DNA of 64,000 bases, taken from NCBI GenBank assembly GCA_020055645.1, contig CM034546.1, positions 24,490,001 to 24,554,000 on the forward strand, written 5' to 3'. The DNA is from Tomocerus qinae. Lineage: Eukaryota > Arthropoda > Collembola > Entomobryomorpha > Tomoceridae. The position numbers and the translations under genes are program-made. Of the stretch, positions 4,847 through 63,654 are shown in pieces; the first letter of the stretch is position 1, and every line of letters begins with the position of its first letter. The notes under the pieces were generated by a model. The model was not told where the DNA came from. It saw only the letters and a list, made by a program, of their open reading frames with translations, and did not search any database.

Positions 4847-4849
4847 TTG

Positions 4850-9245: not shown

Positions 9246-9261
9246 AGTTTTTGCATCCCCG
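9246..9261 (-). repeat. Right terminal inverted repeat of hAT copy 1
   Basis: Exact inverse of 1513-1528, followed by the second GTCCTGGA target copy at 9262-9269. Confidence 0.95.
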
Positions 9262-11674: not shown

Positions 11675-11839
11675 CAAGGGCGTATCCAGAAATCAAATTA
11701 AGGGGGTGCTTAAACATACCAGCAGATTTTTCTTATGTATAAAACTACTTTTTATCATTTTTGAGAATTATCTAGTGTGATTTTGGGAAATTTAGGGGGT
11801 GCTTAAGCACCCTAGAACCCCCCCCTAAATACGTCCTTG
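11675..11839. mobile_element. 165-bp hAT-like MITE with perfect 8-bp target duplication
   Basis: Ends CAAGGGCGTATCCAG and, inverted, CAAGGACGTATTTAG. CGTATAAT flanks both sides (11667-11674, 11840-11847). The paralogous segment near 53,825 lacks the element, giving an empty-site comparison. Inside, GGGTGCTTAAGCACCC forms a palindrome. It belongs to the same family as 40-210. Confidence 0.85.
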
Positions 11840-11847
11840 CGTATAAT

Positions 11848-20600: not shown

Positions 20601-20639
20601 ATATTATTGGTTTATATAAAACTTTTCTTTGTCTTTGTA

Positions 20640-24599: not shown

Positions 24600-26480
24600 T
24601 ATAAATTAACTGTTAAAGTGACTACTATTGCATCCCCTTTTTCATGCAATGATGGAAATAAATATGTGCAGTACCATCATCTTCTGGCTGATAATAGCCA
24701 GCCCCCCATAACATTCATAGTCATTACGCGTCATAGTTATATTTATTCTCACTGTCGGATATCTTTTTACGAATTTCAGCAATGTACGTAGTCGGGGTTT
24801 GTCATATTGCGGAGTAGCTGAACATAACAATTTGACAGTCCGTTTTACAATCTGCATTTTCAAAATTCATAATCCCATTCCGAGTGCAAATAATGTTTTA
24901 AAAATGTTATTTTTTATGTAATTATTTCACGTGTCAACATTACTTGTTCGACATTGTCTATGATGTCTTTGTCGAAAGGATCTCCCAATTTCGTTCTCTG
25001 AGCTCAAGTGTGCTTGAATGCTTCTGCAATTCTTTGGTAAGTAACAATATTCTCCTCCAAATTATCGGTGTTGGGGACTGTTACATGCCCATCCAACAGC
25101 AGTTAGTTGCATCATATACGCCACTAGAATTCCACTACCCGGTGGGGGTACAGAGCGTGCATTGTAAATGAATCCTCCTTTTAGTTCCACCTTGAATGAC
25201 TCATCATTTACTGAAATACTATCTTTTGTAACCTTTCAGTGAAATCCACTGCATTATCCAATTTTGCTGGGAATTTTAATTGTTCATTTATTATTAAATT
25301 GCAAGTTACTCACTTGTAATTTACCATACCTTCTTCTTTGAACTTTCCTCCTAAATCTTTCAAATCTTTGACAAAATTCTTCATGATGTCTCCTGTATAA
25401 AATTCTTCACTGTCCCTGTCTTCTTCTGCAATAATGGTAGCTAATGTTTTATGCTAATTATGGTCTCGTCATCAACACTTTGCCTTCTTTGTAGACATCG
25501 TTGGTGGCTGGATTCCATAAAATTTCTTTCATAGACGGTGTTCTACTGATCGTAGCTGATTTGTGCTGATCCATGGCTATATTATTGTAGCAAAACTGGC
25601 AGACACACGGATACCGTTGCTGCACAAATTTATCCCTGGCTGCAGAACTGCATTTTTATTCCACTCTAATTTTCCACTCTCTCTGTCTATGCAGTTCCAT
25701 GAGTCCTTTTATTTCCCCTGGAATTACGGCAACAGCCAAAGGGCCTCTGGCCGATGATGCCTGCTCGTCTCTATTGAACATAGTAATAATATTATTATCT
25801 TCATAGGCAGCACCTGGACCTACTTTTCTCGGGCATTAATAATAACCTTAAAAATGAACGTAGAAAATGTCACGGTCAGTTAAATTGCAGCAGGATATTT
25901 TTCTTATTTGGCGTTACACATAATAAATTGAATGCATTGTTAAATATTGTTACACTGCTGCCTTCTTTTGTAATGGCGTTGTACATGACCATGAGAAATC
26001 CTCCCCTGATTCCACTGCTGCTAAATAGATGCATTGCTCCCATACATAACAGCGCCGCAACCGCAGCGTCGACAACGCTTCCACCCAACTTGAGCATATC
26101 TCTAACAATAATAATAATTGCAAATACAAAAAATGACATCATTTCTGATTAACGGAAATTATAACTTTTATTACCTAAAATAAAATACAGTATTCATACT
26201 TTCCGACAATAGCACATTCTGGATGATCTGCAAAACAACGGCAGCGTTGTCATCATACACTCCCATTTATTCGGTAGGTTAACAACAACCACACGTCCAT
26301 CGTCTGAATCTGTTGTTTTCAATAATAATATATTACTATGCCTGCAATAATTCCAACAATCACAACCAGTAAAACAACCTCCCCTACGGTATAATACTTG
26401 TTGGTTCTACGGCTGTACGGTTTCCTAATCTTTGGGATATTTGGCCGGGGTTTTTATAGGGTACTACAATATAGACGGAA
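24600..26480 (-). pseudogene. Gamma-glutamyltransferase (GGT)-like pseudogene
   Basis: Minus-strand pieces follow the order of GGT. First comes a membrane-anchor exon (RKPYSRRTNKYYTVGEVVLL then VVIVGIIAGIV), then HPECAIVG and RDMLKLGGSVVDAAVAALLC (about 26,100). SSSGIRGGFLMVMYNA and RGPLAVAVIPGEIKGLMELH (25,740) follow. After these come TPSMKEILWNPATNDVYKEG (25,510), IIAEEDRDSEEFYTGDIMKN (25,420), PPPGSGILVAYMM (25,130), RTKLGDPFDKDIIDNV (24,960) and PEDDGTAHISIIA (24,650). GGT cleaves gamma-glutamyl bonds of glutathione outside the cell and is an Ntn hydrolase with an autoprocessing Thr. That Thr lies in the TS/T motif expected after GTAHISI, and the sequence is degraded there. Several frameshifts and stops occur, so it is non-functional as given. 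Confidence 0.85.
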
Positions 26481-29004: not shown

Positions 29005-30101
29005 CAATTTTGAATATTCATCAAGTACATATTGCTTGCGTTAGAATGCGGTAATAACCTACACGAATATTGAACAAGAAATTCATTTGTAATTTGATCC
29101 GGCCCAGGTGCCTTGTTGTATTTCATCTTTTTTAGTGCCCCCACTAACTCGTCCATGATTATTGGGGTCGTTAGCATTGGGTGTCCAGCGTATTGATATT
29201 CTGCTACAAATTGAAATTTCTGTGGCATTGAATCTCTGTAGTATCTTTCCCAGTCTTCAGAACGTATAGGAATTTTACTACTTGGTTTTCGCCTTAGGCA
29301 TTTTACTCTTTTCCAAAATGCCGCTCCAGGTTTGGTGGAATTAATATTGTTTCGTTGCTTTGTCCAAAAATCTTTCTTTTTAGCTTTTCGGCAATTTATA
29401 TAATCCTTTTTGGCTTTAAAGTAACTGGCCGCATCCTGCTCTTTCCATTTTGATCTTTTTGCTATTTTGAATTTGTCTTTGCAGCGATTAAACATTTCTC
29501 AGCACACCGAATCAAACCAAATTGCATCCGGATATTCTTTCCTCCTTCCAACCATTTTTGATTTAATCGCCACCTTGTGGATGGTATCACACATTGATTT
29601 GCAGTTCTGAATGCTGTCCGTGAGTGAATTCAAATTTCTTAGGAAGTCTTTGGAATGTTCATTTTTCCATTTAATTTTTCGCTCTCTCGCACTTTTCATT
29701 GTCTGTTCCTGCCCAGAGTTACCACTATTGGGAAATGATAAGATTCATTTATATTTAGCACCTTAAAATCTATTGTGTAAGCTGCTGTGTATTTATTAGT
29801 TAGCATAATATCGATGGAACTTTTACCGTTATTATTTACAAACGTAAACTCCCCATTACGATCCCTGGCTGTGGTCCCAATTAGTATTATTATGTCATTG
29901 TTTTCTACGAGATCGATAAAAGTTTCACCGTTTTTATTACATACCTTGTCCTGTGATTGTCTGTGTTTAATATTGTGTGATTTATAATACAATTCCTCAT
30001 TTTGGTATTGCCCAATACGAGCATTAAAATCGCCCCTAAGCAGGATTGGAATAGAATTTAGCGTCTGCAGGTTTTCTATTACACCGTCCAATAGCTGAAT
30101 A
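28945..30101 (-). pseudogene. Truncated non-LTR retrotransposon (endonuclease and start of RT)
   Basis: Minus strand. The AP endonuclease part has LLRGDFNARIGQY, GKSSIDIMLTNKY and ESYHFPIVV (30,091-29,696), the metal/catalytic motifs of LINE endonucleases. A linker (29,699-29,499) and an RT N terminus follow, with MKYNKAPGPDQITNEF (about 29,110). The rest of RT and the 3' end are missing. There is a one-base overlap shift at 29,696-29,699 and an in-frame TGA (VC-TGA-EMF) near 29,497. The 5' truncation at about 30,101 abuts an unrelated plus-strand coding sequence. The endonuclease type is that of the CR1/L2/Jockey group; the clade is uncertain. Confidence 0.8.
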
Positions 30102-30178
30102 CAAGGATCACAGAACTAGATCACATAACTTGTGAACAGGTGGCAACTATCCTCACTAGCTTCTTCCAAATCCTCCAC
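30102..30178 (+). pseudogene. Left fragment of an unidentified plus-strand coding sequence
   Basis: Open frame LNTRITELDHITCEQVATIL plus TSFFQILH runs to the hAT insertion and resumes in frame at 37927 after the second TCCTCCAC copy. It is therefore the same gene as 37919-38277, split by the transposon. Confidence 0.5.
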
Positions 30179-30317
30179 CGGGGATGCAAAAACTAAAGTA
30201 TCCTAGTATCCAGGATACTTTGGGATTTTTGGCATTAACGCATGTAATAAGGCGGTACCCGCCCAAACTCGCCCCCTTGGGGGCGGGTTTGGCTACACAC
30301 ACACGTGACTTTGCCGT

Positions 30318-30532
30318 AAAAGGCGAAAAGTGAGGCGCAAAAGTAAAAGAATGAGGCGGAAAGGCAAAAAATGAGGAGCAAAAGCAAAAAAATGAGGCGC
30401 AAAAGCAAAAAAATGAGGCGCAAAAGCAAAAAATGAGGCGCCAAGCCAAAAAATGAGGCGCAAAAGAAAAAATTAGGCGAAAAGCAAAAAATGAGAAGCA
30501 AGACCAAAAAAATGAGGCTCAAAAGCAAAGAA
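30318..30532 (+). repeat. Subterminal GAGGCGC array, hAT copy 2
   Basis: Identical in layout to 1652-1866 in copy 1; candidate transposase-binding repeats. Confidence 0.8.
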
Positions 30533-31096
30533 ATGTGAAAAGAGTCGAGAGACCCTGATACAATTTAATACATGTGCCTGTGCCTGGCCATGTGTATACT
30601 TAATATGAAAGAAATTGATATTATGATTCGATATTATGTATTGAAATTTCACTTCCTCCAGAATCGCATATTTAAGATATTTATAATCAAAACAAGCTTT
30701 AAATTATTATTTTTACCTACCTGATTTATGAGTTGTGTTGTGGCATCTTAATTGTCAATGGAAAGGTGTTTTGGGGCGATTTGGATATCAATGCATGAAT
30801 TCGCAGCATTTCATCGATAAATAAACATTTCGTTTGAAATTACCCCTAAGTATATGCAAATGTTAATGAAGTAGTCCTTTATTATGTATCACATGATAAA
30901 TGGGCACATGCACTTGAACGAACTGATTCAACAGATCGAGTTTATGAACGAATCAATCAATATCAATCAACAGTTTTAAGTTTGAGGGATAATAAATTTA
31001 ATAATATTAAAAGTTGTATTATCGTCTGTCATGTAGTAATAAATGTGTGCAGTTTGTCATAGACTATAATTGATAATTTTTTCAATTGGCACCGAA

Positions 31097-31399
31097 ATGA
31101 GTGACAAGAGTAAAACAGGCCATGGGCATAGTGAGGTCAAATACGGCTGTAGAAAGCCCGGGTGTACTTATAGTGGTAGGAAAGACAATTTAAAAAGACA
31201 TTATACAAGTGCACATCCAGGGTTTAATCCTGAACATGAACCTGGGCAGCCAAAAGTTGATTCATATTTTAAGAAATCATCATCAAGTGAAAGTGACGAG
31301 GCAAAGTCACCCGCATCTTCATTTCTTTCACCTACGTCTCCATTTGCATCAACGTTAGCTCTATCTCCGAGGATTTTGTTTGCAGAAGAGTCATTATAG
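31097..31399 (+). CDS. hAT copy 2 ORF1, zinc-finger exon (open)
   Basis: Same finger as in copy 1 but with T4 at 31267-31270, so the frame continues into a Ser/Glu-rich tail (KKSSSSESDEAKSPASSF) and stops at 31399. This is probably the correct form of the exon. How it splices to 31691-31756 is unclear, since no consensus donor is seen in frame before the stop. Confidence 0.65.
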   Translation: MSDKSKTGHGHSEVKYGCRKPGCTYSGRKDNLKRHYTSAHPGFNPEHEPGQPKVDSYFKKSSSSESDEAKSPASSFLSPTSPFASTLALSPRILFAEESL

Positions 31400-31690
31400 A
31401 GACGAAATAGTCATTATTTTGTAAAATTCAAGGTTTCCCAATTCCCACTTAGAAAAAGGTAATAATAAAATCGAATTGGAAATGTGTGAAATAATGGGCA
31501 TAGATAGTAAAGTATGCCAAAATTCTAATTTTTTGGCTTTATTTCCCACATTTCCCGCATTTCTCGAGCATCAAACTAAGTGGGGTGTGAAATGAAGACA
31601 TTCGAAACCTGGGGTAAATTATCAATTTTTGGAATATCCATTCTGTAACGAAGTCTACTTTTAAGTCATAATTAATATGTGTTATTACAG

Positions 31691-31756
31691 CCTAAGCCAA
31701 AAATAAAAGACCCAGTAACTGATGAAATTTTTAAAAGCGCCGAGACATCAACTCAG
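31691..31756 (+). CDS. hAT copy 2 ORF1, internal exon
   Basis: Identical to 3028-3093: TTATTACAG acceptor, CAG|GTAAGA donor, phase 0, 22 residues rich in Lys, Pro and Glu. Confidence 0.6.
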
Positions 31757-33307
31757 GTAAGAAATAGTAAAATCTAAATAGTTTAAATTACCTAAATAAT
31801 GCCTATTACCCAAATACTGAAAGTCCTGTTGTCATTATCTCCATGTTGGCGGTAAACAGTTGCTTCATGCAATAAAGTGAATGTGCGTTATTCAAAAGCA
31901 TTATTTTATATTTAAAATTTCGAAGACCAATTATGTAGCTCAATTCAATGTTTTCAAAGACAGCATTACTAGAGTCCAAAAATATTCCTATATTACCAAA
32001 TTTTAAATTTGAACCCTTTGAAATGTCCTTATTAAGAAAACACATCTAATTTTGCCAAAATGAATGACCCCATCAATTTTAGCTGCAAATATTTACAGTA
32101 GCGGCTCTAGGATTTGCGAGGCTTGGGCAAAATGTTCTCGGGAGGCCTTACATTAATATCTCACAAAAAAGGCAATTACAAAATAAAAGTTGTAGGAAAG
32201 TCTGTGTTTCCTGAACGAACTTATTTAAATTAGCAAAATTAGACAAATAAACTAATTTTTGTGCCAAAATAAAATAAAAAATAAGAAATAATCGTTAATT
32301 TTTCGCTGGGGTCGGTAACCGGTGAAATCGTTGAAAATTCAAACAACTATTTTTACCCTACTATCTAGTTCAGGCAGTTCATTCCTAGCTATTCCAAATC
32401 ATTATTGGCCAGCTAAAATGGAATTTGGATAAGAATTTGCAGATAGAAAGAATGCACTAAGTTTTACAGATATTTAAAAATTGCATTTTTTACTATTAAA
32501 TTCTCAAATATTATTATAAAACGTTTGCTGAAGTTCAATACTTTCAATTTACTATTATATTGACTATTAGTACAACAGGAGGGATTAATACATTTAGTAC
32601 CGTTTTTCCCAATCGCCAAACATTTTTCTACAAACCATCTTTATATTAATTCAAATCTTTTAAATTGAATTTGGCATAAAATTACTGAAAGCAAGATGAA
32701 AAAATTAAAAATAAGGCCCTAAAACTCGCTAGTATTATCGCTAATTAGGCATTTCAGCATTTGAATAGTTTCATTCCTTTTATTTACCAAAACTTTTTTC
32801 CTGTTTAAAATCAACAACTAATGGAAAATTAATTTTCTACAACTACTGCAATTTTACAGTTGCATCGCAACAAAATCTGTTGCTGTTGAAATTCCTGATA
32901 TATTATATGCGACTATGTGATCAAAACTACTAAAAACGACCAAGGCTAGCAAAGAGTATCGAGTCGAGAGTGCCGTAAATTCCGCATGCCGTTAATTGCC
33001 GTAAATGCCGTTAACAAATTTTGAGCTACAATAAGCCGTTATATGCAAATATATTCAAAATACAACGCTTAATTTGTCATTCTTATTATTACTACCATAA
33101 ATCATTCATTTAAATTCCCGCTGTATTTAATCTGTGAAAATTGTTATCAAAAAACATTTAATTTCAAAACTGAAATGTCAATTATTAAACTATATTAGTG
33201 TGCTTATAGTAGTTAACGGCAAGAGGCATCGGAAAAAAAATTACGGTCTGCCGATTTTATTCGGTGTAATTTACATTAAATTTTAAATATTCGGTTTTCA
33301 TTAACAG
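31757..33307 (+). other. Large intron of hAT copy 2, no gene recognised
   Basis: Matches 3094-4657 of copy 1 apart from small indels. Confidence 0.5.
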
Positions 33308-33496
33308 GAAACGGAAAATTTTCGTCATAAAAGAATACGATTGGACCAAATGCATAGCAATGTGGAAGTTATTTTACTAAAGTGTGAAGAAATTTTGGGA
33401 AGTATTCAACAAAAATCTCTGCAACAAACTCGATATGTAATAGAACAAAATATCTCAATATTTGACAGCATCAAAAGATTTTGTGAAAACTCTTAA
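33308..33496 (+). CDS. hAT copy 2 ORF1, last exon (coiled-coil)
   Basis: Identical reading to 4658-4846, ending in TAA at 33494-33496. TTG ATG of the OTU-transposase follows in the same frame. Conservation of the stop in both copies shows it is ancestral to both, not a sequencing slip. Confidence 0.6.
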   Translation, partial: ETENFRHKRIRLDQMHSNVEVILLKCEEILGSIQQKSLQQTRYVIEQNISIFDSIKRFCENS

Positions 33497-33499
33497 TTG

Positions 33500-36400
33500 A
33501 TGCAAGCTAACTATTTTAATAAAGAAGATTCAATTGTTGCAGCTTGTCTGCCTAATGTTATGAAGTCAAATTATGTTCCAGCGAAAGTTAAAAGAGATGG
33601 AAATTGCTGGTATTCTGCAATTGCTATGGCCTTGTTTGGAGATGAAAAAATTCATTCTATTATACGCTTGGGAGTTTTGCAACAGGTAGTAGAAAATGAA
33701 GAAAACTTATCGTCTGCAGTTAGAGCTACATATGGCGAGGATTTTAAGTTCTTGTTTAATGAAGTCGCCACAAACAACCATTGGTCGTTTAACACTGTAA
33801 ATTTAATTACCAGTGAGGTTATTAACCGGCCAATAATTGTATTTGAAAAATTCGATATCAACGACCCAGATCTCTTCGGAGACTCTTCGAAGGGCGAAGA
33901 CTACTTCCGCAAATATTTGTCAGAACCAAGAAAAGAAAGCAATCATCTGCAGTATATATCAAATCCATTACACAGTGGCAAATCTCCTGTAAATGTTTTC
34001 CTTTATGACGAACATTTCACACCTTTGCTCCCTCGAAATATGTGTGAATTTAAACCTTTTGACGTCTACAAAAGCTTTAAAATCTATACACTACAAATAT
34101 AATTATATCAAACCTTGCTCTTCGGCTAATAAGAAAAAATCTTCATCTACCGTGATAATTGATTTAGATTTAAGGCCTACAGGGAAAGAGACAACAGCTC
34201 ACAGCCACGAGAAGAAGAGAAAAGAAGACTTAAGTAGTGTTGATTCTATGAAAATATCTACGGACATAAAAGTGCCTACAGTCCAGGAAGTTCCTACACA
34301 CATGCATTTACCAACTATGGAAGGGGTTGCTACAAGTGCAACTGAACAGGAGCAACAAGTTAAAATTAGCACCAATTTAAAAAATAAACTGGAGCTTCCA
34401 GTAACATTAGAGTCACTAGCTTCACTTGTTATTGACATGAAATCAACCCTAGTTAAAAAAATAGAAATGCTGGAAACAGAAATATCGGAATTAAAAAAAG
34501 AGAAGCAAAAGCCATTGCTCACTAAAAAGCTGTCGCCTGAGGAAAAAGAGATAGCAGCCGTAGCAAAATGTAAAACATTGGACAAGCTAAGGGAGGTACT
34601 TCCTGGTTTTTCTTTCAAATATGTAGAAACAGTAGATGTTGATGAACCAGGCTGTAGCAAAGATGAAGATGAAGGAGTACCAAATTATTGTGAAGCAACG
34701 TGCATATGCTGCGTGATGAACGAAAGACCAACAAATTTGCCAAAATCTCCTGGAATTTTGAGATTCAAATTAACTAAGGGTAGTAAAAACTTTACTTCAT
34801 TAACAGGCTCCCAATCCAGAGATTTCTTAAATTTCAAAAAAATTAATAGCCACCTTTCATTAAAATCGCATATTGAAGCGGCAGCTGAAATGGCCAAAGA
34901 AAATAAAGAATTAACAAACTATAATTATATTGCTGGGAAAGCTGTGGGCCAAATTGCGTACAAATCTGCTGGGAATTTCTCTGACTTTGAAAGGTTGTTG
35001 CAGTTACAGGCCTCTATCGGAACCAATATTGGACATATTAATCATAGTAGGGAATTTTGTGCAGCTTTGCATAATCAATTTTACGATATTTTAAGAAATC
35101 AATTATCATTGGATCTAAAAGCTGAAATTCCAGCCACGGGAAAACCAACCCCTGTATCGGTTATTGCAGACAAAATGACAACAAACAAACGAACCGGACA
35201 AATTGTGGGTTTAATAGGGTTTACAGCTGGAAAAATTCGACCTTACTTCTATGATTACAGTGCTGTAAAAGACCATACTGGAAAGGGAATAGCTCAACAA
35301 ATCCGTACATCCTTGTCAGCAGATTTTCCTGACAATTCGGAATTAAAAGCGAGGTCAGTAATACTTCATACTTCTATCAAATATTTCTTGCTTGTCATTA
35401 TGATAATTATGATTTTACTTCATTGATAAGTTCAGTCAACTTTATGCATCGGATGAAGAATATTTTGATTCAATATTGCATAGGCTCGTTGGAATCGCAG
35501 TGGATGGCCAGATTGTCCATTTGAAAGTAATGGATCATTTATTACAAAATATGAACATTACTGATGGACAAGATTGGTTTAGTTTATCGTGGGACCCGGC
35601 ACATGTATTAGAACTTGCAGAACAAGATGCACAAAAAGTCAAAGGAAATATTGCGACAAAAATTAAACGACTAGTATCAGAAAATAATTCGACGTTCAAT
35701 GGAAAGGCATATGAAGGGCTTCTAGAATTATCCGACAATTCAGCTATGAAGCCAATACAATTTTCGGACACTCGTTTTGCTACTTACAGTTACTTAGTGT
35801 ACAAAAATTTTTTGCACAACTATGAGTATTACTACGCATACTTCAGTCAACAGCAAATTAGGAATGCAACGATGATTAGAGAATTGGAAGCAGCAGAATT
35901 TGTATATGGGGTTACTGCATTGTATGATGTGTATAAGCATATAAATTTTCTTTCCCAAACATTTCAGAAAGTTGAGTTGCTTCCGTGGCAATTGGCAAAA
36001 GTTATTAATAAAGGTATACAGGATTTAGAGACCATGAAAACCAGACTACTTTCAATAGAGTCTTTGGATGAAAGTGACGGGAAAGAGGACCCTTTAAAAA
36101 CGTTTTTGTCTGCAAAGACTGAGTTAGAGTCTACCGCCCAATATAAGAGGAAGGACATTTTTATTTCGAAAGAATGTGATCCGAACACATAGAAGCATGG
36201 CACCACAATCAGTAGTGGCATCTGAGGCAGCGGAAGATAGTTTAAAAGTAGTTAGAGATGCTGTCTGCCAAAAGACTTGCGCAGAAGTTGCTAAATTCAT
36301 TGCCTCATTTGCAAATCATCTTCGAGATCGATTTATTAAAAGCCAACCGAAAATTGTTAAAATGTCGCAAGAAATTTTTGACATTCAATCAGTTTACAAA

Positions 36401-37045
36401 CATTATATACATTCGTCAGTTCCAACTGATCTGAGCAGCTTAGTTGCCTTGGCTAAAGCAAATGGTGTATTAGACAATAATATAAGTCTACTATCAATAA
36501 GTAATGAGTATAGGGAATTTGTGAAAAGAATTTCAGTTGCCCTTATTGATTCGGAACCCACTAAAAAGAAACAGCAATTTCTTAAACTAGTAGCAGAAAT
36601 TGGTAGAGAAGAAGCAGAAAAAAGAAGAACAGAAATCATGCTCAATGAATATGTTGAAATAGATAGGGAGTTAGCTATATATTATGACTTTTGCAATAGC
36701 GTTGAAAATAGAGCAATAGAAAATATTTCACAGTTGCTAATTACAAGTATGTTGCGTACTCATTGCGAAGCTGTAGTGGAAGGAATGGGAAGTGTGGTTT
36801 CTGAAGATGCGGAGTTCCGTCCAAAATTGCATATTGACAGCCTTAAAAAGAAAGCGTTTGTAAAATGGAACGGACCAAAGGCAGGGAGCAGTTCAATAAA
36901 GTTAGTAGAAAAGGCATTGGACTTACACTTTGAAAGTCGCCAACAATGGAGATTTTTTCAAGTTGGGGGGTCACTTTTAAAGTGGACTACCTCGAAGGTT
37001 GTCGATAGACTAGAGCAGATCGAAAGTCATATAAATATAAACTAA
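33500..37045 (+). CDS. OTU cysteine protease-hAT transposase fusion, copy 2
   Basis: Same product as 4850-8399: OTU domain with RDGNCWYSAIAMALFG and DEHFTPLLP, coiled coil, Cys cluster and hAT-like catalytic core. The exon break is a GTCAGT donor near 35,357 and TTCAG acceptor near 35,438. Two lesions are seen: loss of TG at about 34,063 (GACGTCTAC versus GACGTGTCTAC in copy 1) and an extra T in 36,158-36,162. Where copy 1 is shifted (around 6,935 and 7,919), this copy is intact, with DGQDWFSLSWDPAHVLELAE and PTKKKQQFLKLVAEIGREEA. Each copy therefore corrects the other. One polymorphic Lys codon is missing near 34,840. Confidence 0.8.
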
Positions 37046-37918
37046 AACTTTCGAACTTAATTCCATTGATTATATACTATAGGGTCGCCCTGTCACTTAT
37101 ATATTTCTTTTCTCTGACATATTAATTAGGCTAGACTAGGTAACAAATAGGTCTGTAAGCCATCCTGTAGAGCAGATAATCTGTTTTATCTGCAAACTAA
37201 TCGACTGTGACAACACACAAATCTGTTGAAAATAAAACGTGATGTTTTCATTTCACCAATTTTTATCAAAATAGGGGCTGCTCAATTTTTTGCAATATTT
37301 GTGCAATACAGGGAATTTGTCATAATTAAAAGAAATAAAGTTGTAAAATAGAAGACCTCCGATTTTAATAAAACGTTCTTAAATAAATTGGAACTTGAAA
37401 TTAACCTTAACCTATTATATATATTGGAAATACTTTTTCAAAAGCAATGGTATATGAAATTAATTGCAAATATACAGGAAGAGTAGCTACTGGGTATATC
37501 CATTCATATGATGTATTGAAGCATTGTCATATTATATACAATAAAAGATAAAAATAAACATTCTAAATAAAAGGTTATATAATATTTTTAATCAAATTTT
37601 TTAAGGAAACGGAAAGAATTGAAAATTTTTCTGTGATTGGGAAAAATTGCACAAGTACGTCAATTTTGGTTTATTTTCAGCACAAAAATGTCAAAATTGG
37701 GACAATTTTTTATGTCGCTCAAGTCATATTTAAAGGGGGTTTTCCTATACTCGCCGTCACATGACCCCAAAAAAATTTCGCGCCCCTTAAGGGGCGGGGG
37801 CCCCACCCCCCGCCCCCCCACCCCCCCTCCACCCCCCACCTTCCCGTCCCAAAATGAGGCGCGCTATCTGAGTCCGCCATCTTGGATACTGAGGCGCTGA
37901 GAAGTTTTTGCATCCCCG

Positions 37919-38277
37919 TCCTCCACAGTAGTGGAAAATGGACCGATGCATTAGCCGAACACACCTCAGTGTGTGACGTAAAAATTAAACTCAATAACCC
38001 CAAATTTGAATTTAATTTAGTCGCTACACTGATACAACAAAACGGTATCAAAGCCCTAACTAGCAGACTCTACACAATGGCCACAATTAGGGGAGCATAC
38101 TTCAAAATGGAGCCCTTAAAGCCCTTGATCTACAAAGCCCTTAAACGACAGAATCAAAGGATTCTCCCATTTACCCCCCAAACTAGAAATACAGATAAAA
38201 AATTACTAATCGAACAAGCAACCGCATGGTTTGCTAAATTACAAAATATAGCCGTCAATACTATACTAAAATACTAA
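37919..38277 (+). pseudogene. Unidentified A/C-rich coding sequence, interrupted by hAT copy 2
   Basis: Frame from 30102-30178 resumes as SSGKWTDALAEHTSVCDVKI and continues NPKFEFNLVATLIQQNGIKA and LYTMATIRGAYFKMEPLKPL to a stop at 38277. Codon use is A/C-rich and G-poor, like 44,229-44,690, which suggests the same original element. I do not recognise the family. Frames after the stop (LAELAATRFIQDYASHREIN near 38,310-38,370) also look protein-like, indicating further frameshifts. Confidence 0.45.
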
Positions 38278-44050: not shown

Positions 44051-44223
44051 TATGAGGAGGCTCCCATGCAAATGCCTCCCACCTCCCAGACTCACCAGGA
44101 GACGGACTCACCAGTTGGTCGGGAACCCTCGTCGTCGTCAGTCAGTCAGGTCGGGTTCCGAACCAGAGTCAGGAATACAAGGAAACGGGCATCTTTCAGT
44201 CTAACCCGGATTTCCCTCCCGAC
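44051..44223 (+). repeat. 3' LTR (internally deleted)
   Basis: 173 bp. Both termini match the 5' LTR, but it lacks about 30 bp near its start and about 150 bp in the middle. Confidence 0.75.
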
Positions 44224-44228
44224 AACAC

Positions 44229-44733
44229 CTCTTAAAAAGAGAAAATTTCGAAGAGCAACCAAATTATTCCCACACATATCAATACCCAACAAAGAAACAT
44301 CAAACACATTATTACACTTACACCATTTAACATTATTAACTCCCAATAGCTTACACAATCTAGCCAACATTATCATACCCAACGAAATTAAAGTAAATCT
44401 ATTAGCCGGAAACACGTTTAATTTTGAATTCATCCACACTAAAAAACAATTACAAACAGAAATATTACGAAACCTACATAAAGTGAGTTGGAAGATATTC
44501 TTCCAAAACAGAAACCTAATAAACACAAACGACTACGGCCCATTAGAACAACTAGCAACCAAATATAGTAAATTAAAAGATTCAAATGCATACACACCAG
44601 CCCCAAACATTGGCACAATTTTTCCAGACTGCAGAGAATTTCTCAATCAAATACATAATCATAATTTATCTTCGAAAATAACATAATAATAAAGCCAGCA
44701 GATAAAAATGCAGACATTACAGCACTAAACGCA
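44229..44733 (+). pseudogene. Penelope-like retroelement, N-terminal region and RT start
   Basis: After the second AACAC the frame reads LKKRKFRRATKLFPHI, then LLHLHHLTLLTPNSLHNLAN and TFNFEFIHTKKQLQTEILRN to a stop near 44,686. In the next frame IIIKPADKNADITALN follows directly, matching the (I/V)xKPADK motif at the start of Penelope-type reverse transcriptases. The shift falls in an A4 run (44675-44678). The sequence is then cut off by a LINE, so no catalytic YxDD or GIY-YIG part is present. Upstream sequence before the LTR element (…TTTTCAG|ATTACAACA) would join in frame. Confidence 0.6.
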
Positions 44734-50432: not shown

Positions 50433-52549
50433 TTAACGCCCTTTTCGAATAGACAATACTGCGTCACCCATTTCGATATTCACGCCATCCAACGGAAATA
50501 CACGATTACTTCGTCGAACATCTTTGGTGAAGGTTATTATCCAGTTTAAAATATTCGTAGTGCTTGTTTTCAGCTTCAATCTAGTGCGCCAAAACCATTC
50601 CAAAAGAAGAGTGATGAATGATCCAAGTAAAAAGTATCCACAAACCAAGAAAATAGTATGGATTTTCATGGACAAACTTATAGGCAATGCCTCAGAATCT
50701 TTATGCTTTAGTTTTGCATGGGATTAATAATATGGAATCATCTCTTGAAAGTATTCAATGAAAAGAGTAACATACCATGGTTTATTGTAAGGGCGGGCGG
50801 AAGCTGTTAACATCCAAATGTGCCCACATCGACTTTGTTCCTTTAGATGTTCATATTGCCTTGCATATATGGCAGTGAAGTTCAGTCTTTCAGCCATCAA
50901 TCCAACCGCTCTCACCGAATTTTGACAAAGATGACTGAAACGATTAGTTATTATCAATGAATTAAGCAGCAACCTTTTACACTCTGGCAATTTTCTAGGA
51001 CTATTCAATGCAAATTGACCAAATAAAATGCCAATTTGAATGCCATTAAGATTCCCGTTTAAAGTATTCCAAATTCTTTCCCATTCTTCTTCGGAGTCTT
51101 CTGTTTTAATTGGATGAAGTGAAAATGAAGAATCACCCTTCGGACTGTAGAGAATTGTCGTGTAAATCGAATATTCGCTTCCAACTTTTATTGCTAATAT
51201 AAAGAGAGGAGCCACCAATTGTCGAGTGAGAAAGTATCGCCACTTTGGATTCATCCATTTCAACTCATCTTTGATGACCATCATGATTCTCGAATTCAGA
51301 CTATTTAATTCTTTGCCAAGAATATTGAAGAGATACTTCAAGGCAGGGTCTGGTTCCATTAGAATATTCACCGCGTGCACGGTTCCCGGATATATGTGCC
51401 AACGGTCAAATGTGCCAATTATTTTTTTCAGAGATTTTGAGAAGTGCCAAAAACAAAAGTGCCAATGAAATTAAATGCCAATGCAAGTTTAATTAGTCAT
51501 TGTTAAGTCTCATGTTATGTACAAGGGTATTACTTTGTAAATTATAATCCTATGTGAGTTTAAGTCTTTCATCCTTGATTATTCCGTCCCACTAAATGTG
51601 TACATGCATTTAAATAATCGATAATAATATTAGGTTTTGTGAGATACTGTACAACCTGAAAAGAAATCTTTTCATCAAGCTCCCTGTACCTTTTCTTTTG
51701 AGGTGTTGCCATTCCGCTGTTAAAGTAAACGATCATAAGCGAACAATTACTTTATTCGCTTTGGAAATGGGACAATAACATCTAAATTGATGGATGCGGT
51801 TTATTCACTCTAGATAATAATTAAAACCATGATGCCAACTTCCAAGCAATTTGTTGTTCTTAGTACATCTTCTTGTACATGTTTCCAATATCTTACGTTT
51901 TTAACAACACATGTTTTATATAGGAATACCTGTGCAGGTGTTTCTTTTCAACTACTGGGGCCAAGGCAAATGATAAACAGAAATAAATGTAGGATACTTG
52001 TTCCCTAAGCTAGGACTTTAGCTTATCAGCTTAGCGTTTACATATCAGCGTATTCAAATTACACAAGGCTTTCTTGATTGATCTAAGTTCGTTAGTCTTC
52101 CATTTACTATGAACTACAAATAGAATTGCTAGAAAAGCATAAATATTTTAGCATAGATCATCCAACGCAAACTTTTTGGGATTTTGGCATTAAATGCCTT
52201 GGCACTTAAGTTTTTGGCACTTTTGAAATTGACACTTATGGACATTGAAAGTGCCAATTGGCACTTTTATTTTGGCACTTATATCCGGACACCGCGTGCA
52301 CAAACTTCTAGATAGTTCGCGTGGATTATTTACATGACGACCGAAGACAGTTTGATTATACTTTGACGGTGCCAAAGTCCATGGTTGGCCATTTTGGTTA
52401 GACAGAATAAAATCTGTCTGCCATTCGGATTGATTGAAAGTAATCATGTTAAAATCACAATTACTATAGGACGACAAATTTCGAAAGCAGTTGATGTTGT
52501 TTATAATAAGAGAAACTAAAAATAGAACAATTGTATACTTTGAATACAT
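50433..52549 (-). pseudogene. Ionotropic-receptor-like gene copy 2, with insertion and internal deletion
   Basis: Start ATG at 52549 gives a good signal peptide (MYSKYTIVLFLVSLIINN), then the ligand-binding half to 52,302. An insertion (51381-52289) follows, then coding resumes at 51,368 with NILMEPDPALKYLFNILGKE. It continues to SVRAVGLMAERLNFTAIYAR and EYFQEMIPYY at about 50,726. The gene then jumps directly to the last membrane segment (LPISLSMKIHTIFLVCGYFL) and stops at 50,433. About 750 bp encoding the first two membrane segments, pore and S2 region of copy 1 are missing, so no channel could form. An ancient paralogue of 453-10751. Confidence 0.8.
51381..52289. mobile_element. 909-bp fold-back MITE with GTGCCAA repeats
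   Basis: Inserted in IR copy 2. CACCGCGTGCAC occurs on both sides (51369-51380, 52290-52301). The ends are GGTTCCCGGATATATGTGCC and, inverted, GTCCGGATATAAGTGCC. Clusters of GTGCCAA (left) and TTGGCAC (right) fill the outer 100 bp of each end. No coding potential. The 9-12 bp duplication is MULE-like. Confidence 0.75.
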
Positions 52550-54475
52550 TTTAACACGAAAATTAAATTATGTCTGAACGATGCCAAGTAAGAGATAGAA
52601 AGTTCTATTTTAACTGAAGTCACACTAAATGTTGTATATGTACATAACCAGTGAGGCACCAGCGAAGTGGAACTCAGAAAGTCAAGGACTTGCAAGGCTG
52701 ACAGTTTATATCAAAGTAGCAACCGGACACAAACAACTGTAACCTCAAATTGCTAATCATACACCGTGAAATTCAAAATGGTTCCCCTAGTATAACTATC
52801 AATCAATTTCCCTATTATTCACAGGCCGTCCTACATGGATAGGCAATAATTGCGGTTCTACATTTTGGAAAATGCCATTCGATGAAACACTTCTAGAGCA
52901 CGGAAATATTAAAATTTTTTTGAGGTTGTAACACAATTTAGCAAAAAAGCTGCACTTTTTGGTGGCTAACCATAAAATTGTAAACACAAGTAAATTTCCT
53001 TGCAACCGAACATGAAATAACATTCCTTACATATAGAGAGAAAGGAATGAAATTTTGGAAGCCATTGAGCTGACCATTTACCTGTATCAAATAAAATATG
53101 TCTTTGATTAATTTCTGACATTGGTAATTCATCTTAACACTTAGCAAGAAACTAGGTCTTTATTTCTTATGAAGCACAATGTTGGAACACAATTATGCAA
53201 CATTTATTTGTTGAACAGTAGTACTTTAATATTTCAATAAAACATATTTCCTCCTTTCCACTTCAAGATGAAGCGTGAGATGATACTGCAATAGTTTTCA
53301 ACCAAACATTTTAAAACTACTGTGAAGTCTTTAAGTCTCTAAATATTTTGATAGCTAATCTATTGATATATTTAATATTCTAATTTACCAGTATTGTCTT
53401 CAATATTTGCTTGTATATTGAGAAATGTTAGTTAAAAGGTCTCTAGAAACGGTTTGCATTTTATCCATTTGTCTTATGCAAGTTATTAGCAGAGCAAACC
53501 TTTTTATTTTTTTATCTAAATTTAGTATTATATAGTGTAGCAAAAATACTTCATTTTTCGGTACTCCTATCGGTACTGAGATTAAGAGTACCGACCGTAG
53601 TGGTACCGCACCGGTACTCCCGGTACCAACCGGTAATGGATTCTCTAGAAATGACAGTGAGTTGAGAGAAAGACCTTCAAAGGAAAAGCAGAATTGTTCT
53701 AAGCCAATCAAAGGCTTTAACGTGTCGATCAATGCTACTATTTAAACATTTCCTGAATACTTTAGTGTTCGTTCTTCGTATTGTAGACATATATTGTGTT
53801 TTTGCATGTTGAAATGTTAAACAACGCAAAATATGCTCTTGTATTAGTATATTATTGGTCTTTTATTACCTGAAAAAAATTATGTCCTCTTGTAGTATTT
53901 AGAATTTAAATAGAATATCAGATACCATATACACTTATTTATATAGTTAACTCTATGTTGACGAAAGTTTTACCTTTGATAACCCGAAAAGAAGTAAGTT
54001 TTATAATTTGGGGATTAATGATTTCGTAATGAATAGTGTAAATCTTTATATGTGAGCATTATCTTATCTTACTTTACTATCTCATATCAGTTTATTTTGC
54101 CCATCTTATTCCTCACAAATGACAATAAGCAAACGTTAGCAGGTTTCCTATGCATACGAAAGTAACAAATGTTTTAAAACTTTGTTCACTTTTAGTGAGC
54201 CAGTTTTATATTAAGGTGAAAAGTGCATTAAAATAAGTCATGTATTGTTAATTAATGAAAAATCAATTATTCTGGTTACAAAATAAATTTGGAGTGTTTG
54301 TAATTATTTAGTAACAAGTGATTAACATAAATAGCTACAACAACGCCAGTTAATATTTGTTCGTATAGATGTTAATGTTCCATTATGGCAAGTTCAAGTT
54401 TCCCTTTGAGATGTTTGTTATACTACTCAAGAAATTAAGGCCATAATATATACCCTTATTTTTAGTCAATTCTCT
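52550..54475. other. Upstream flank of IR copy 2, duplicated and noncoding
   Basis: Collinear with 10,752-12,480 but lacking the 11675-11839 MITE. It includes the GGTACCGG-rich patch near 53,560-53,640. Confidence 0.55.
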
Positions 54476-58294: not shown

Positions 58295-58904
58295 CTACTG
58301 TATGAAGTCTGTAGCGCTCTTACGTGCTGCTGCTGCCTTAGGGCTAGTTCTTATTCCTCTGACTCTTGGTATTAAAGAATACTGCTGAGCCACCTGCATG
58401 AAGGAAATGTAGCAGAACTTGAAACAGTTGTATATAGCAATTACATGACTCGTGTGTTTAAATACAAAGACGTACATATTCTTGACGTATGTCATCAGGC
58501 CAAACCAAAACAACAGGGTTGGCTACCTCTGTTTGTAAAATTCCAAGGCTGCGACGGACTAAAGGTCCTCCAGAAACGCCACCAACAATTAAGAAAAGAA
58601 GAAAGGAGAACTAAAATCAAAACAATTGTCTTGAAATTTCTTGAAAATTATATTTATTTAAATAAAGTTTTAATTAATTAGTATACAGACATTATATGGC
58701 ATTCTAATTGATATTCAAACTATTGGTTTGGAATGTTGACTAAAGGTTGCGTAATCCTTTTTTTTTTTAAATTCCTTTATAATATATATTTTGTGAATTT
58801 GAGGATTCATTAAAATATTCCAAAAATTGTCTTACCGACTGCGAGACAAAGATTGAGAGCATTAAGCTGGCAGTTAATCCCAAAAATATATTTATTTTCT
58901 GCAT
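58295..58904 (-). CDS. Small secreted cationic precursor, tandem gene 1
   Basis: Three phase-0 exons on the minus strand: 58904-58836, 58610-58476 and 58393-58295, encoding exactly 100 residues. Exon 1 is a 23-residue leader (MQKINIFLGLTASLMLSIFV then SQS). Exon 2 has a hydrophobic LLFLIVGGVSGG, then LVRRSLGILQTEV and VVLVWPDDIRQEY. Exon 3 is basic: VAQQYSLIPRVRGIRTSPKA then AAARKSATDFIQ. All splice sites are consensus (GTAAGA, GTACGT; TTTTAG, TGCAG). RR in exon 2 is a possible proprotein cleavage site. Exon structure and the leader are shared with genes 2 and 3. The layout leader/propeptide/cationic C terminus suggests an antimicrobial peptide, neuropeptide or other secreted effector. No known family is recognised. 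Confidence 0.75.
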
Positions 58905-59675
58905 TGCTTTTTTAGAGAATCTTGTACTTCAATGTGATATTTAGGCTTCCCTAGTAGCAATACGCTTTCGATAAATGTTGTATGCCAGTGAAATGGATGA
59001 TACAAACATACATCAAAGTTTTATTGTTTACCATTACTGTGAAAGATACAGATATCTGAGTATGTAAATCATGGAGAAAACGATATGAGTTGCGTCATTT
59101 ATGAGCATTGTTAGATTGTACCATAATTTGAATTTAGTTATTTGTTTTACATTGTTTCGGCTTTAACTATGTTTCACTGTCATAACTTACAATGTTTTCT
59201 ACAACTGGAAAATATTAAAATCAGCGGTAATTAGAAAAATATCGAAATAGAGTCAAAACGTTGGGATTAGTTTACCTTTATTTTGCACTTCCCACTCTAC
59301 ATTAAATTTTGTTGGAAATTGATAATGTAAATTTCACGGTAGTTAATACCTGTCAATAATTTAACTAGAGATATTTCCCAAATTCCCAATTGAAACCTTG
59401 GTTTCTTTATATCACCATTAGTTTCATATCAATAATGTGAGTGTAATCATTTCTTAGTAATTGCACTTGAACGTATATTGGTTTTGTATCTCAGCTAACG
59501 GCTTAGGGTAATTAGGGTATAGCTGATATTTAAAGTTTAGTGGAAGGTCACAAATTTTAGTTTGGGAATTAATTGCTTTATTGCGTCGTTATTCACAACA
59601 TAAGGAAATATTTATTGGTGACTATCAGTTAGTTCTATCAAAATAGCAGTAAAGAACTTAAGTTATTTTTTGGTC
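58905..59675. other. Intergenic, no gene seen
   Basis: AT-rich; presumably contains the promoter of gene 1. No leader-like exon similar to the three genes is found here. Confidence 0.4.
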
Positions 59676-59777
59676 TTAATGATGAACTGCACTGTGATAT
59701 GTGCTTTGAATACGCATTCGAGGCTGTAGTATCGAGGTTGGGATCTGTGTGTGGACTCCTCTTCCTTGTTCGAAATA
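59676..59777 (-). CDS. Possible orphan terminal exon of a fourth family member
   Basis: A TTTACAG acceptor opens a phase-0 frame of 33 codons, YFEQGRGVHTQIPTSILQPR and MRIQSTYHSAVHH, then TAA. Length, phase and basic character resemble the third exons of the flanking genes. However, no matching leader or middle exon is seen upstream before gene 2. It may be a remnant or an alternative exon. Confidence 0.3.
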   Translation of the reverse strand, partial: YFEQGRGVHTQIPTSILQPRMRIQSTYHSAVHH

Positions 59778-60407
59778 CTGTAAATTTTAGAAAATTGAGA
59801 CTGATGTTTTGGATTACAATTTCAGAATAAAGAAAAAAATCTTGATTTTTACACAATAGAACAACCATTTATTTTCTTATAACGTCGTTTCTTTCTTAGT
59901 AATTTGATGCCACTATATGCTAATTTTTGTGATTTTTATGCAAATTAAATATTGATTTTTTACAATATGAGGCATTCATTTATTTGAAACCAAATAATTA
60001 AGACATTATACAAAAATTTGTTCACTCTAATGGAGTCCGGGAGTTGCTATCAAACCCCATTTATGTTATACGGATATATTACAAATGAAATACATGTAAG
60101 GGAAAGCTGACAATTTATAAACAGCAAAATAGCAATTGGGATTTTTTGCTATTTTTACAAGGTTAATATTTTATTTTATTATAAGCAAATGCTTAATGTG
60201 CTTCCAACCTTTTGATTCATAATAATTCATTGTTCACGGATAAAGGCTACCAAAGTATATTTAATTAAAATATTTTTCAAGCTTTCGACATGAATTATTA
60301 TTAATTATAAGCACTGATTTTTGTCCCAGCTTTTTGTAAACAAAGATTTTTCAAAATTTAAATTCGTTTATATTAGGTACTCCAGATCAAAATCTCATCG
60401 ACCTTTT
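59778..60407. other. Intergenic, no gene seen
   Basis: AT-rich spacer between the orphan exon and gene 2. Confidence 0.35.
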
Positions 60408-61188
60408 TTAGTTCATGAAGTCTGAAGATCTCTTAAATCCTGTTTGCTTTCTTGTGATTTGTGAAAGAAAAGAGTTATGCTGGGTATCTGGAGCCTACAA
60501 AATTAAAAGTAGTAGTAACAAATATTTACATAAGACATAACTGTAAAGTTGTAGTATACAGTTGAAGTAAGAGAGGCTGCAAATTTTAATACTGCTAAAT
60601 ATTTTTTTAATTCATACATGTTCATATTTCTGCTACCCAATGAAACGAAAAATCAAGTTACCATAAATTATTTTTAAGATTAAGTAATATTTTATATATA
60701 TCGCAGTCCAATGACCAATGTAAGTTAAAAGTTACCGTTAGTAAAACGTAATATTGTACGTTGTTAGTACTCCAAAAGTTATTTTGAGTGTATTATTATA
60801 GTAGTAAATGCTTACTTTTTGAAGGACATCAACAGGCCACACCATAACTACAGGGTCTACTTCTGTCTTCAAAATTTCGAGGCTGCGACGAACCAAAGAT
60901 TCTCCAGAAATACCCCCAACAATTAGGAACAAAGCGAAGAACTAAAGTCCAAAAAAATTTGGCAATGCTATTACTTGAGACATTGACTATATATCACTGT
61001 TTCAACTACTAAAATTGCCTTCATATTTTAAATGTTGTATTTAAAAGATTCATTAATTACTAATATTGAAGGAATTTAAATGTTTACGAGAAAGTTAATT
61101 ACAAAAAATTATTTATTACCGACTGGGAGACAAAGATTGATAGGAATACGCTAGCCGTTAATCCCAAAAACAATTTTATTTTCTGCAT
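60408..61188 (-). CDS. Small secreted cationic precursor, tandem gene 2
   Basis: Minus-strand exons 61188-61120, 60941-60816 and 60494-60408, all phase 0, encode 93 residues. The leader MQKIKLFLGLTASVFLSIFV plus SQS differs from gene 1 at few positions. Exon 2 reads LFLIVGGISGESLVRRSLEI then VVMVWPVDVLQK. Exon 3 reads APDTQHNSFLSQITRKQTGF then KRSSDFMN. The ends of exon 3 in genes 1 and 2 align (RKSATDFIQ, KRSSDFMN), while the middle is unlike. Conserved leader plus diverged tail is the usual signature of secreted peptide families under diversifying evolution. Confidence 0.75.
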
Positions 61189-62441
61189 GGTTTTTAAGGT
61201 CTTATTTAGTCTATTGAAAGTTCCTTCTGCTGCTAACTTTTTCAGCTAAATATGCGAACAACTTAAATTTCACACAGCGTATAATTTTTTAAACCATTGT
61301 TTTTTATCTAATTTTAGTTGGATTGATAAATGAAGGGAAACGCAACAGAATACAAAATTTCTAGCTATTCGTTAAATCGTATTATAATTGCAATTTAATT
61401 ATCTCATACAGTTTTATATATTATTTCATAAATCACCTAATTTATTTCGTATACATGGAAAATATTCATGAAAAGTAGTAAAATAGTGGGAAATAAAAAT
61501 GCATGGAAAAATTTGGAAAATAGAACTAAAGTTTTTGCCTATCCATAAGTTTTTTTTTAAATTTTCCAATTCCCATTCTACATTGAATGTTATTTGGAAA
61601 TGAAGCATGCCTATTATATAACTGCTATCATATCAACACTATTGCATAATACGTGAGTTTACAACATTTCCAACAAATCTACAGAAAAAACGTGCAACGA
61701 CTACTAATTAGTTTTATAATTTTTACTTTGTAAGGTTAAGTTCATTTTGGTTAGAACGTCACGTAATTTGATTTCTGAACTAATTGCTTGTCATGCTAAT
61801 ATTCACGTCACGAATTTTATTTTACATCATTATTTTTATTCACGTCTCATGTAATTGTATAGTGTTTGATTTTCTCACACATCTGTATCAGTTTAGTCGC
61901 TACGCATATAATTCATGAATTTAGTTATTTAGTGCAGTTAATACCGATAGTAACCCGATAGCTTGTTTAAATGCGCAATTGTATCGAAAAGGGTCAGCAC
62001 ATGTGATTTACATTCTGTAGTATATAAGCTATCCAGGGGTGGGTCGTGTTATTTATCAGCGTAGCAAAGTGGTCCCATTTTTAAATATAAATGTACATCA
62101 AAATTCAGGAAATTTTAAATATAGTGAGAGAAATGCATTCTTGACAAATACGAAATCCAAAAGTCTATATGACATAGGTATCTGCTCTCGTTCTCAGATA
62201 TCGGAAAGATAAAGCAAGTATAATGAAATTCATTCCTGGAGCAAGTATACAGTATCGGATTATATAAATAACGAAGGTTTTAATTATTTTATTTTTGATG
62301 TTGCAATTCATATATTTGAGGTCACAACCTAAGAGTATTAATAAAGACATATTTATGTATTTGTTGAGTCCGACACAATTATATCTTACAAATACAGTGT
62401 TTATTAACTATATTAAATAAAAGAACTTAGAAAATCTTAGA
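61189..62441. other. Intergenic, no firm gene
   Basis: AT-rich. A plus-strand TATATAAGC at about 62,021 and a minus-strand hydrophobic frame (62,165-62,350, 61 codons) are noted but unsupported. Confidence 0.35.
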
Positions 62442-62552
62442 CTAGGAACATTTGGGACAAAAACATGTTAGCCCGGTATATTTGTTCTTGCAGCAGTGCT
62501 GGCTGCTCGTTATGACAGAATTAATCCCACTGACTGACATCGCTGTAGACAT
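62442..62552 (-). CDS. Short Cys-rich open frame
   Basis: 36 codons from ATG at 62552, ending HCCKNKYTGLTCFCPKCS then TAG. Five cysteines in the last 17 residues resemble the end of a disulfide-rich peptide. It has no leader of its own, so if real it is a terminal exon. It sits between genes 2 and 3 of the secreted precursor cluster. Confidence 0.25.
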   Translation of the reverse strand: MSTAMSVSGINSVITSSQHCCKNKYTGLTCFCPKCS

Positions 62553-62599
62553 TAATTATGCATAATTCTTATCGAAATTTCTTTGTTTGCAAAGTGATA

Positions 62600-62811
62600 T
62601 GTGTTATGGATTTTTTGTCTTTGTACTTATTGCTCTGGATATTTTCTTGTACATCTTCGGTTTGTTGTTGTTAGATATGCCTTTTAGTCTGGTCACAAAA
62701 CATAATATATCGAACGTTTTCTTCATCTTCACCTACATGTATTATACCGTCCCAGATTACTATAAGTTAACAAAAACTTGGTTCGGCAACATTTTATTTT
62801 TAGAAGGTTGA
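62600..62811 (+). CDS. Short hydrophobic open frame
   Basis: From ATG at about 62,599 (MCYGFFVFVLIALDIFLYIF ...) to a stop at 62811, roughly 70 codons with two membrane-like segments. It could be a small membrane protein or a receptor fragment. No supporting signals. Confidence 0.2.
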
Positions 62812-62830
62812 TTATTTAATGACAATTACA

Positions 62831-63654
62831 TTACTTATTTTGTTGATTATATGCGTCGGTCAGGGTTGATAAATTTGGTAAGGGCCTACGGGAAGGTCTC
62901 TTAAAAATTGGCCTTCTTGATCTTTTAAATCTTGGCCATACCGTCAAATGGACACTGCCATTCCCCTGCAAATACCAAAACAATATTACAATTTTAGAAA
63001 CTTTTTATTGTGTTCTAAATGTATTGGATTGTGATTAAAACTCAATTTGGTACGATTTTAAGTCAAATAAATATCAGATGCTTGTACATATAAACAAGTG
63101 ACTCGGAAATTTTAAGTTTTGCTTACATGACGATAAAAATTTAGTTTACTTAGTTACTATTAGCTATAATAACTGCATTTACATTTTTCCCACGGATATC
63201 AACATGCGACATGTCCAACGGTTGTGTCTGCAAGCCATGGCTTTGGTCAGCTAAAGTTCCTCCAGAAACACCTCCGATGATTAGGAAAAATATAGAATAC
63301 TGTGAATCAAAAACAAAAATATCAATTTCAATTTTCAAAGCTGCTTGAATTATAAATACTTTATTATTATTACTGCTTACTTTATTAAGAGTTAAATTAA
63401 AAATTAGAAGTCGGTATTTGTATTTGAAATCCAAAATCAAAAACATAGGGATTTTTATTCTTGAATATTTGTTTCGCCGAAAATTTATTTCCTGTGTTTA
63501 AAACGTTTTAGAATTATTATTATTTATCTGAATTCAGGTCATCATTTTGGACATGACGGAAGGGTTAATTGCAAAAGTAACTTACCGGCTGCGAGACAAA
63601 AACTGATGCAAGTAAGCTAGCTATTAATCCCAAAATTAAATTTGTTTTCTGCAT
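62831..63654 (-). CDS. Small secreted cationic precursor, tandem gene 3 (Pro/Arg-rich C terminus)
   Basis: Minus-strand exons 63654-63586, 63299-63183 and 62965-62831, all phase 0, encode 106 residues. The leader is MQKTNLILGLIASLLASVFV plus SQP. Exon 2 is IFFLIIGGVSGGTLADQSHG then LDMSHVDIRGKN. Exon 3 is strongly basic and proline-rich (WPRFKRSRRPIFKRPSRRPL then PNLSTLTDAYNQQNK). Arg/Pro-rich tails of this kind occur in proline-rich antimicrobial peptides of insects (apidaecin and drosocin types), although the repeat pattern is not the same. The exon 2 donor is GTAAAT. If unspliced, exon 2 stops after 12 further residues, giving a 74-residue form. Exon boundaries match genes 1 and 2 exactly. 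Confidence 0.7.

Follow-up and report, generated by a model that had tools for sequence, protein, structure and literature searches.

A small tandem family of putative secreted peptide precursors in the collembolan Tomocerus qinae

Gene structure and paralogy of the cluster

We analyzed a 64,000-nucleotide stretch of the genome of the collembolan Tomocerus qinae (GenBank assembly GCA_020055645.1, contig CM034546.1, positions 24,490,001 to 24,554,000; hereafter the window, to which all coordinates below refer) and found a cluster of three predicted genes on the minus strand, namely, A (63654-62831), B (61188-60408), and C (58904-58295). They form a real tandem family that is small and probably functional, with products predicted to be secreted precursors and a putative role proposed below. 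Each gene has three predicted exons, and the predicted products of A, B, and C have 106, 93, and 100 amino acids, respectively. All nine predicted exons were found by exact match with intact GT donors and AG acceptors, and the exon limits give intron lengths of 82 to 321 bases. Since all exon lengths are divisible by three and the introns are bounded by GT-AG, both introns are in phase 0 in all three genes. These results bear out the original prediction, an earlier reading of the same DNA that described three minus-strand genes of three exons with phases 0/0. An in-frame stop without an intervening in-frame ATG lies 5′ of each start codon (codon -48 in A, -20 in B, and -9 in C), and an AATAAA starts 32 bases past the stop codon of gene A.

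Exon 1 (A, MQKTNLILGLIASLLASVFVSQP, 63586..63654; B, MQKIKLFLGLTASVFLSIFVSQS, 61120..61188; C, MQKINIFLGLTASLMLSIFVSQS, 58836..58904; all on the minus strand, as are the exons that follow) has 23 codons and begins with MQK, as predicted, and it ends with VSQP in A and VSQS in B and C. The copies in B and C were placed by exact match and paralog similarity; the copy in A, which encodes the first part of a predicted signal peptide, resembles both of them at a level reached by 0/306 control segments. Exon 2 encodes the end of the predicted signal peptide together with a propeptide-like stretch in A (63183..63299), and with an LVRR site and an acidic stretch in B (60816..60941) and C (58476..58610). 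Its net charge is -1 in all three genes and is still -1 for the part after the predicted signal cut. Exon 3 encodes the tail and includes the stop codon (A, 62831..62965; B, 60408..60494; C, 58295..58393). The tail of A contains Arg and Pro, with basic pairs alternating with Pro (RRPIFKRPSRRPLP), and has a net charge of +9. The tail of C has a net charge of +5, and that of B is mildly basic, since its net charge is +2. No cysteine is present in any of the three products. Two further claims of the original prediction stand in part: the middle motif LIVGGxSGG is present as LIVGGVSGG in C but reads LIIGGVSGG in A and LIVGGISGE in B, and the description of the third exons as basic fits A and C and, only weakly, B.

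Frames of at least 24 codons that open after a pyrimidine-rich AG are common in this region (11 in a 10-kb control), and an open frame alone therefore does not prove any single exon 3. One such frame between B and C (59777-59679) was considered as an alternative last exon of B. This candidate is unproven and was set aside, because similar frames are this frequent in the control and none of the best seven matches of its search falls on a tail.

The relationship among the three genes was assessed by z-scores of DNA alignments against mononucleotide shuffles, and local alignment scores were also compared with 306 control segments. Between B and C, z is 15.3 for exon 1, 15.1 for exon 2, and 4.8 for exon 3, and it is 2.4 for intron 1, 2.0 for intron 2, 0.9 for the upstream 200 bases, and 0.1 for the downstream 200 bases. 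For A, exon 1 gives 13.1 with both B and C, exon 2 gives 7.8 with B and 9.0 with C, and exon 3 gives 0.5 with B and 2.5 with C; the introns and flanks range from -1.7 to 2.4, except for intron 1 in the A-C comparison (4.3). For exons 1 and 2, all six pairs have a score that 0/306 control segments attain. Judged on their sequences, A, B, and C are paralogs in which exons 1 and 2 form islands of similarity amid mostly shuffle-like introns and flanks. For exon 3, the score is attained by 0/306 controls in the B-C pair, 2/306 in A-B, and 57/306 in A-C, so that this exon is homologous between B and C, borderline between A and B, and not above chance between A and C. The tails had been described as very different, which fits A and C, but those of B and C are not wholly without relationship.

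Alignments of exon 1 are free of gaps in every pair. The gap lengths of exon 2 do not help, as those divisible by three in the DNA alignments are 2/4 in B-C, 2/5 in A-C, and 4/6 in A-B, and the gaps of exon 3 are not clearly multiples of three. Upstream, z between B and C rises to 5.8 when 400 bases are considered, and a block upstream of gene B (61357..61601, minus strand) has its counterpart upstream of gene C (59097..59319, minus strand), with 62% identity and an expectation value (E) of about 1e-7; the two blocks also lie inside a longer B-C match. This shared block may be regulatory or merely duplicated.

We found no known family for these products, in line with the original prediction. 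None of them has a Pfam match above the cut-off: A and B have none at E 1, and C has one sub-threshold match (RESP18, 12.7 bits against a cut-off of 25). Likewise, 0/3 products matched the prokaryotic library NCBIfam, no relative of C was found in a large protein collection at E 1 (22 candidates), and a three-row alignment of A, B, and C found none there at E 10 (930 candidates). Searches of viral contigs gave 151 pattern matches, of which 0 were confirmed, no solved structure in PDB matched, five peptide strings had no match in literature text, and Rfam had no match within the window. A piece of another gene in the window, used as a control, was also without a protein relative at E 1 (821 candidates), and the absence of relatives is therefore weak evidence.

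Every exon was searched within the window for a fourth copy, and the exon-1 and exon-2 queries have no match outside the cluster at E ≤0.05. Only for the tail of A are there two weak matches, at 27084-27010 (E 0.002, or 0.010 once corrected for composition) and at 44181-44270 (E 0.028, or 0.31 once corrected). No leader was seen adjoining the former, which has nearby stops in the same frame, and we take both as composition matches rather than further copies.

Predicted signal peptide and constraint on the exons

The N-terminus is hydrophobic in all three products, with two runs at about residues 5-21 and 24-33 that flank the first intron. Cleavage sites were scored with a von Heijne-type matrix, and shuffled N-termini provided a 95% control level for each product. 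The top site in C is VSG↓G at residue 37 (score 10.6; second best 8.2 at residue 25), that in B is ISG↓E at residue 36 (8.3; second best 4.2 at residue 16), at the place homologous to the site in C, and that in A is TLA↓DQ at residue 40 (6.3; second best 4.7 at residue 16), while the VSG↓G site of A scores 2.5. Only the score of C stands clear, because the control levels are 9.0, 8.6, and 7.7 for C, B, and A, respectively.

The 23-codon exon had been described as a leader. It is hydrophobic, and the best predicted cleavage falls in exon 2, after (V/I)SG or TLA. The predictions give moderate support to a signal peptide encoded by two exons, of which the 23-codon exon is probably just half. Because the predicted signal runs into exon 2, the shared middle motif, LI[IV]GG[VI]SG[GE], is likelier to close the signal than to be a motif of the mature peptide, again with moderate strength.

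Dibasic pairs, which are candidate cleavage sites from the sequence, occur in all three products (four in A, three in B, and two in C). Those of A are RFKR↓S and three others, each with Pro directly after; Pro in this position hinders convertases. Those of B are LVRR↓S, TRK↓Q, and GFKR↓S, and those of C are LVRR↓S and AARK↓S.

Constraint on the protein was examined with a neutral simulation, in which the observed number of changes was placed randomly and scored for amino acids kept without a stop; it covered all three exons of B-C, exon 1 of A-B, and exons 1 and 2 of A-C. For B-C, P is 0.026 for exon 1, 0.0011 for exon 2, and 0.0001 for the two jointly, and for exon 2 of A-C it is 0.00015. These comparisons indicate that protein constraint beyond neutral expectation is present in exons 1 and 2 of B-C and in exon 2 of A-C. 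Changes between B and C in exons 1 and 2 are also unevenly spread over the three codon positions (13, 5, and 21; P 0.007), with no significant bias in exon 3 (P 0.31).

Ratios of nonsynonymous to synonymous divergence (dN/dS; Nei-Gojobori method, NG86), calculated for each exon as the original prediction had proposed, rise between B and C from 0.28 in exon 1 and 0.21 in exon 2 to 0.96 in exon 3. For A-B, they are 0.63 in exon 1 and 0.49 in exon 2, and exon 3 is not computable; for A-C, they are 0.53, 0.12 (at a dS of 3.47, near saturation), and 1.81. When B-C is split at the predicted signal cut, the ratio is 0.31 for the signal (95% bootstrap 0.09-0.97), 0.21 for exon 2 beyond it (0.06-0.64), and 0.96 (0.34-2.58) or 1.56 (0.65-5.25) for the tail, depending on which of two uncertain alignments is used. 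The gradient from front to tail is a trend with overlapping intervals.

Proposed role and alternative explanations

As the best explanation, we tentatively suggest, with confidence somewhat short of even, that A, B, and C are tandem genes whose products are secreted prepropeptides and belong to a fast-evolving family of effectors, which would most likely serve host defense. Tandem duplication would have given rise to the three genes. The signal peptide would be long, with 36 to 40 residues encoded by exon 1 plus the opening 13 to 17 codons of exon 2, and would direct each product into the secretory pathway. Both secretion and cleavage of the signal are predicted. The remainder of exon 2 would form a propeptide of mildly acidic character, and exon 3 would encode a variable basic tail. 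Cutting at basic sites (RFKR↓S for A, GFKR↓S for B, and AARK↓S for C) would release or activate this tail, and B and C would have a further cut, LVRR↓S, where the propeptide begins. After duplication, weak or diversifying selection may have let the tail diverge, with the front retained, as in host-defense and venom peptides. The basic tails would then act extracellularly, and host defense is judged the likeliest role because they are basic and without cysteine. We infer splicing in vivo, processing, and an antimicrobial role from these features.

Several observations weigh against this explanation. Neither A nor B has a signal score that reaches its control level, AARK↓S in C is a poor convertase site, and the tail of B is only slightly basic. 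Exon 1 in A-B (P 0.23) and A-C (0.18) and exon 3 in B-C (0.25) are within neutral expectation, codon-position bias is not significant in A-C (P 0.13) and A-B (P 0.81), and the B-C intervals of dN/dS for the signal, the rest of exon 2, and the tail overlap. In addition, searches with three patterns of kB-like immune sites found none in the upstream 346 bases of A or 600 bases of B and C. The raw counts of GATA-type hexamers in the same stretches are one in A, two in B, and none in C.

The main rival places the active peptide in exon 2, where the LVRR↓S cut in B and C would free a conserved mid-peptide, SL(E/G)IL(K/Q)TEV...PVV(M/L)VWP..., and exon 3 would be a loosely constrained extension. The lowest B-C ratio of dN/dS does fall in this part of the protein and the LVRR site is present in both genes, but gene A lacks the site and most of the stretch, and B and C are perhaps merely a younger pair; we regard this rival as unlikely. 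The same architecture could belong to other secreted effectors, such as venom, saliva, seminal fluid, or cuticle proteins, for which the evidence of secretion and the fast-changing end would speak equally, and tissue is not indicated by the sequence. The products have no cysteine frame like that of most disulfide-rich venom toxins, however, which leaves such effectors a possible but rather doubtful explanation. The sequence fits antimicrobial, venom, and other secreted roles alike. The original prediction had named antimicrobial, venom, and neuropeptide precursors as the layout; its conserved front and fast-changing tail are supported as a trend, and the neuropeptide part is weakened. A neuropeptide precursor is less likely because no amidation signal (G[KR][KR]) is found in the three products and no tail motif is common to all of them, although amidation is not universal among neuropeptides.

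If the long hydrophobic N-terminus stayed uncleaved, the products would be small single-pass membrane proteins. The two hydrophobic runs, the weak cleavage score of A, and the failure of both A and B to reach their control levels would agree with this, but the site in C beats its control and the top site of B lies at the homologous place, and we consider the membrane reading improbable. Alternatively, the genes could be decaying duplicates, with only some copies expressed or exon 3 mispredicted in A or elsewhere. This could account for the chance-level similarity of exon 3 between A and C, the frequency of open tails after AG in the region, and the neutral-like exon 1 of A-B and A-C. Yet all nine exons are open with intact splice sites and exon 3 is homologous between B and C, so decay seems an improbable account.

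Returning to secreted host-defense prepropeptides, insect proline-rich antimicrobial peptides such as apidaecin and drosocin, which have high Pro content and a PRP-type motif, resemble the tail of A in its alternating basic pairs and Pro. Unlike them, however, A has no PRP and only 4 Pro in the 29 residues that follow RFKR, and neither B nor C has a Pro-rich tail.

Conotoxin precursor genes of cone snails are described as having three coding exons that approximately correspond to the signal, pro, and mature regions (PMC3862624). In several conotoxin superfamilies, both dN and dS climb between the first and the third exon, and the signal of the I2 and P superfamilies has its last 9 and 11 bases, respectively, in exon 2 (PMC3862624). 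The three-exon organization of A, B, and C and the predicted reach of their signal into exon 2 are similar. In contrast, the conotoxin introns described there exceed 3 kb and are mostly in phases 1 and 2 (PMC3862624), whereas those of A, B, and C are short and in phase 0, and the products lack cysteine. No sequence link to conotoxins was found in the general searches, none of which was aimed at conotoxins. Mussel myticalins are described as a multigene and taxonomically restricted family of linear cationic antimicrobial peptides, with a hypervariable mature part between conserved regions, opposite charges of the mature and pro parts, and a dibasic site (PMC5577615). A, B, and C share a linear cationic variable part, an oppositely charged pro part, and dibasic sites. 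Myticalins differ in their order of signal, mature part, and anionic C-terminus, in having signal and mature part in one exon, and in a second intron of phase 1 (PMC5577615). The families treated in an account of collembolan antimicrobial peptides are diapausin, Alo, defensin, cecropin, and diptericin, of which three are cysteine-rich, one glycine-rich, and one linear helical (PMC10051947). These are small defense peptides of soil hexapods; A, B, and C have no Pfam match above cut-off.

Surrounding sequences and implications

Elsewhere in the window, two same-orientation copies of a 7.75-kb stretch (1513-9266 and 30179-37922) are 99.4% identical, and the first contains an OTU-like protease frame (Pfam OTU, 21.1 bits, below the cut-off of 23.3). 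This repeat is probably a recently active mobile element. Two related receptor-like genes, at 453-1512 with 9267-10158 (minus strand) and at 50434-52551 (minus strand), have 83.6% DNA identity between 9290-9923 and 50728-51373 and 94.3% between 9922-10133 and 52295-52506. We tentatively take them to be intronless ionotropic receptors, for which Pfam gave no support. In the dipluran Campodea augens, ionotropic receptors are described as largely intronless (PMC6938034). The 7.75-kb element seems to interrupt the first of these genes, and the second also seems to be interrupted, between 52294 and 51374. Upstream of both, non-coding duplicated stretches (11351-12478 and 53510-54470) are 84-87% identical, which suggests an older segmental duplication. 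The window also contains a gamma-glutamyltranspeptidase gene fragment (25876-26148, minus strand; Pfam G_glu_transpept, 37.1 bits), a retroelement endonuclease (29696-30115, minus strand; Pfam Exo_endo_phos_2, 33.3 bits), and an AT-rich long tandem array with a period of 44 and about 20 copies (19712-20607).

On our best reading, the tandem family of A, B, and C is new and its kind familiar. In the most specific form, which we put forward as a speculative and rather unlikely proposal, these genes would encode lineage-specific, cysteine-free, cationic host-defense peptides with a signal peptide spread over two exons, an acidic middle that is kept, and a tail exon subject to fast rewriting, which in one case produced an Arg/Pro peptide. 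If expressed, the genes would make up a peptide family not described before, in which a common scaffold bears three differing natural tails, and would offer a convenient case for studying the divergence of a mature exon beside a leader that is retained. They also illustrate that short spliced genes may be recognizable by tandem paralogy even where database searches yield nothing.

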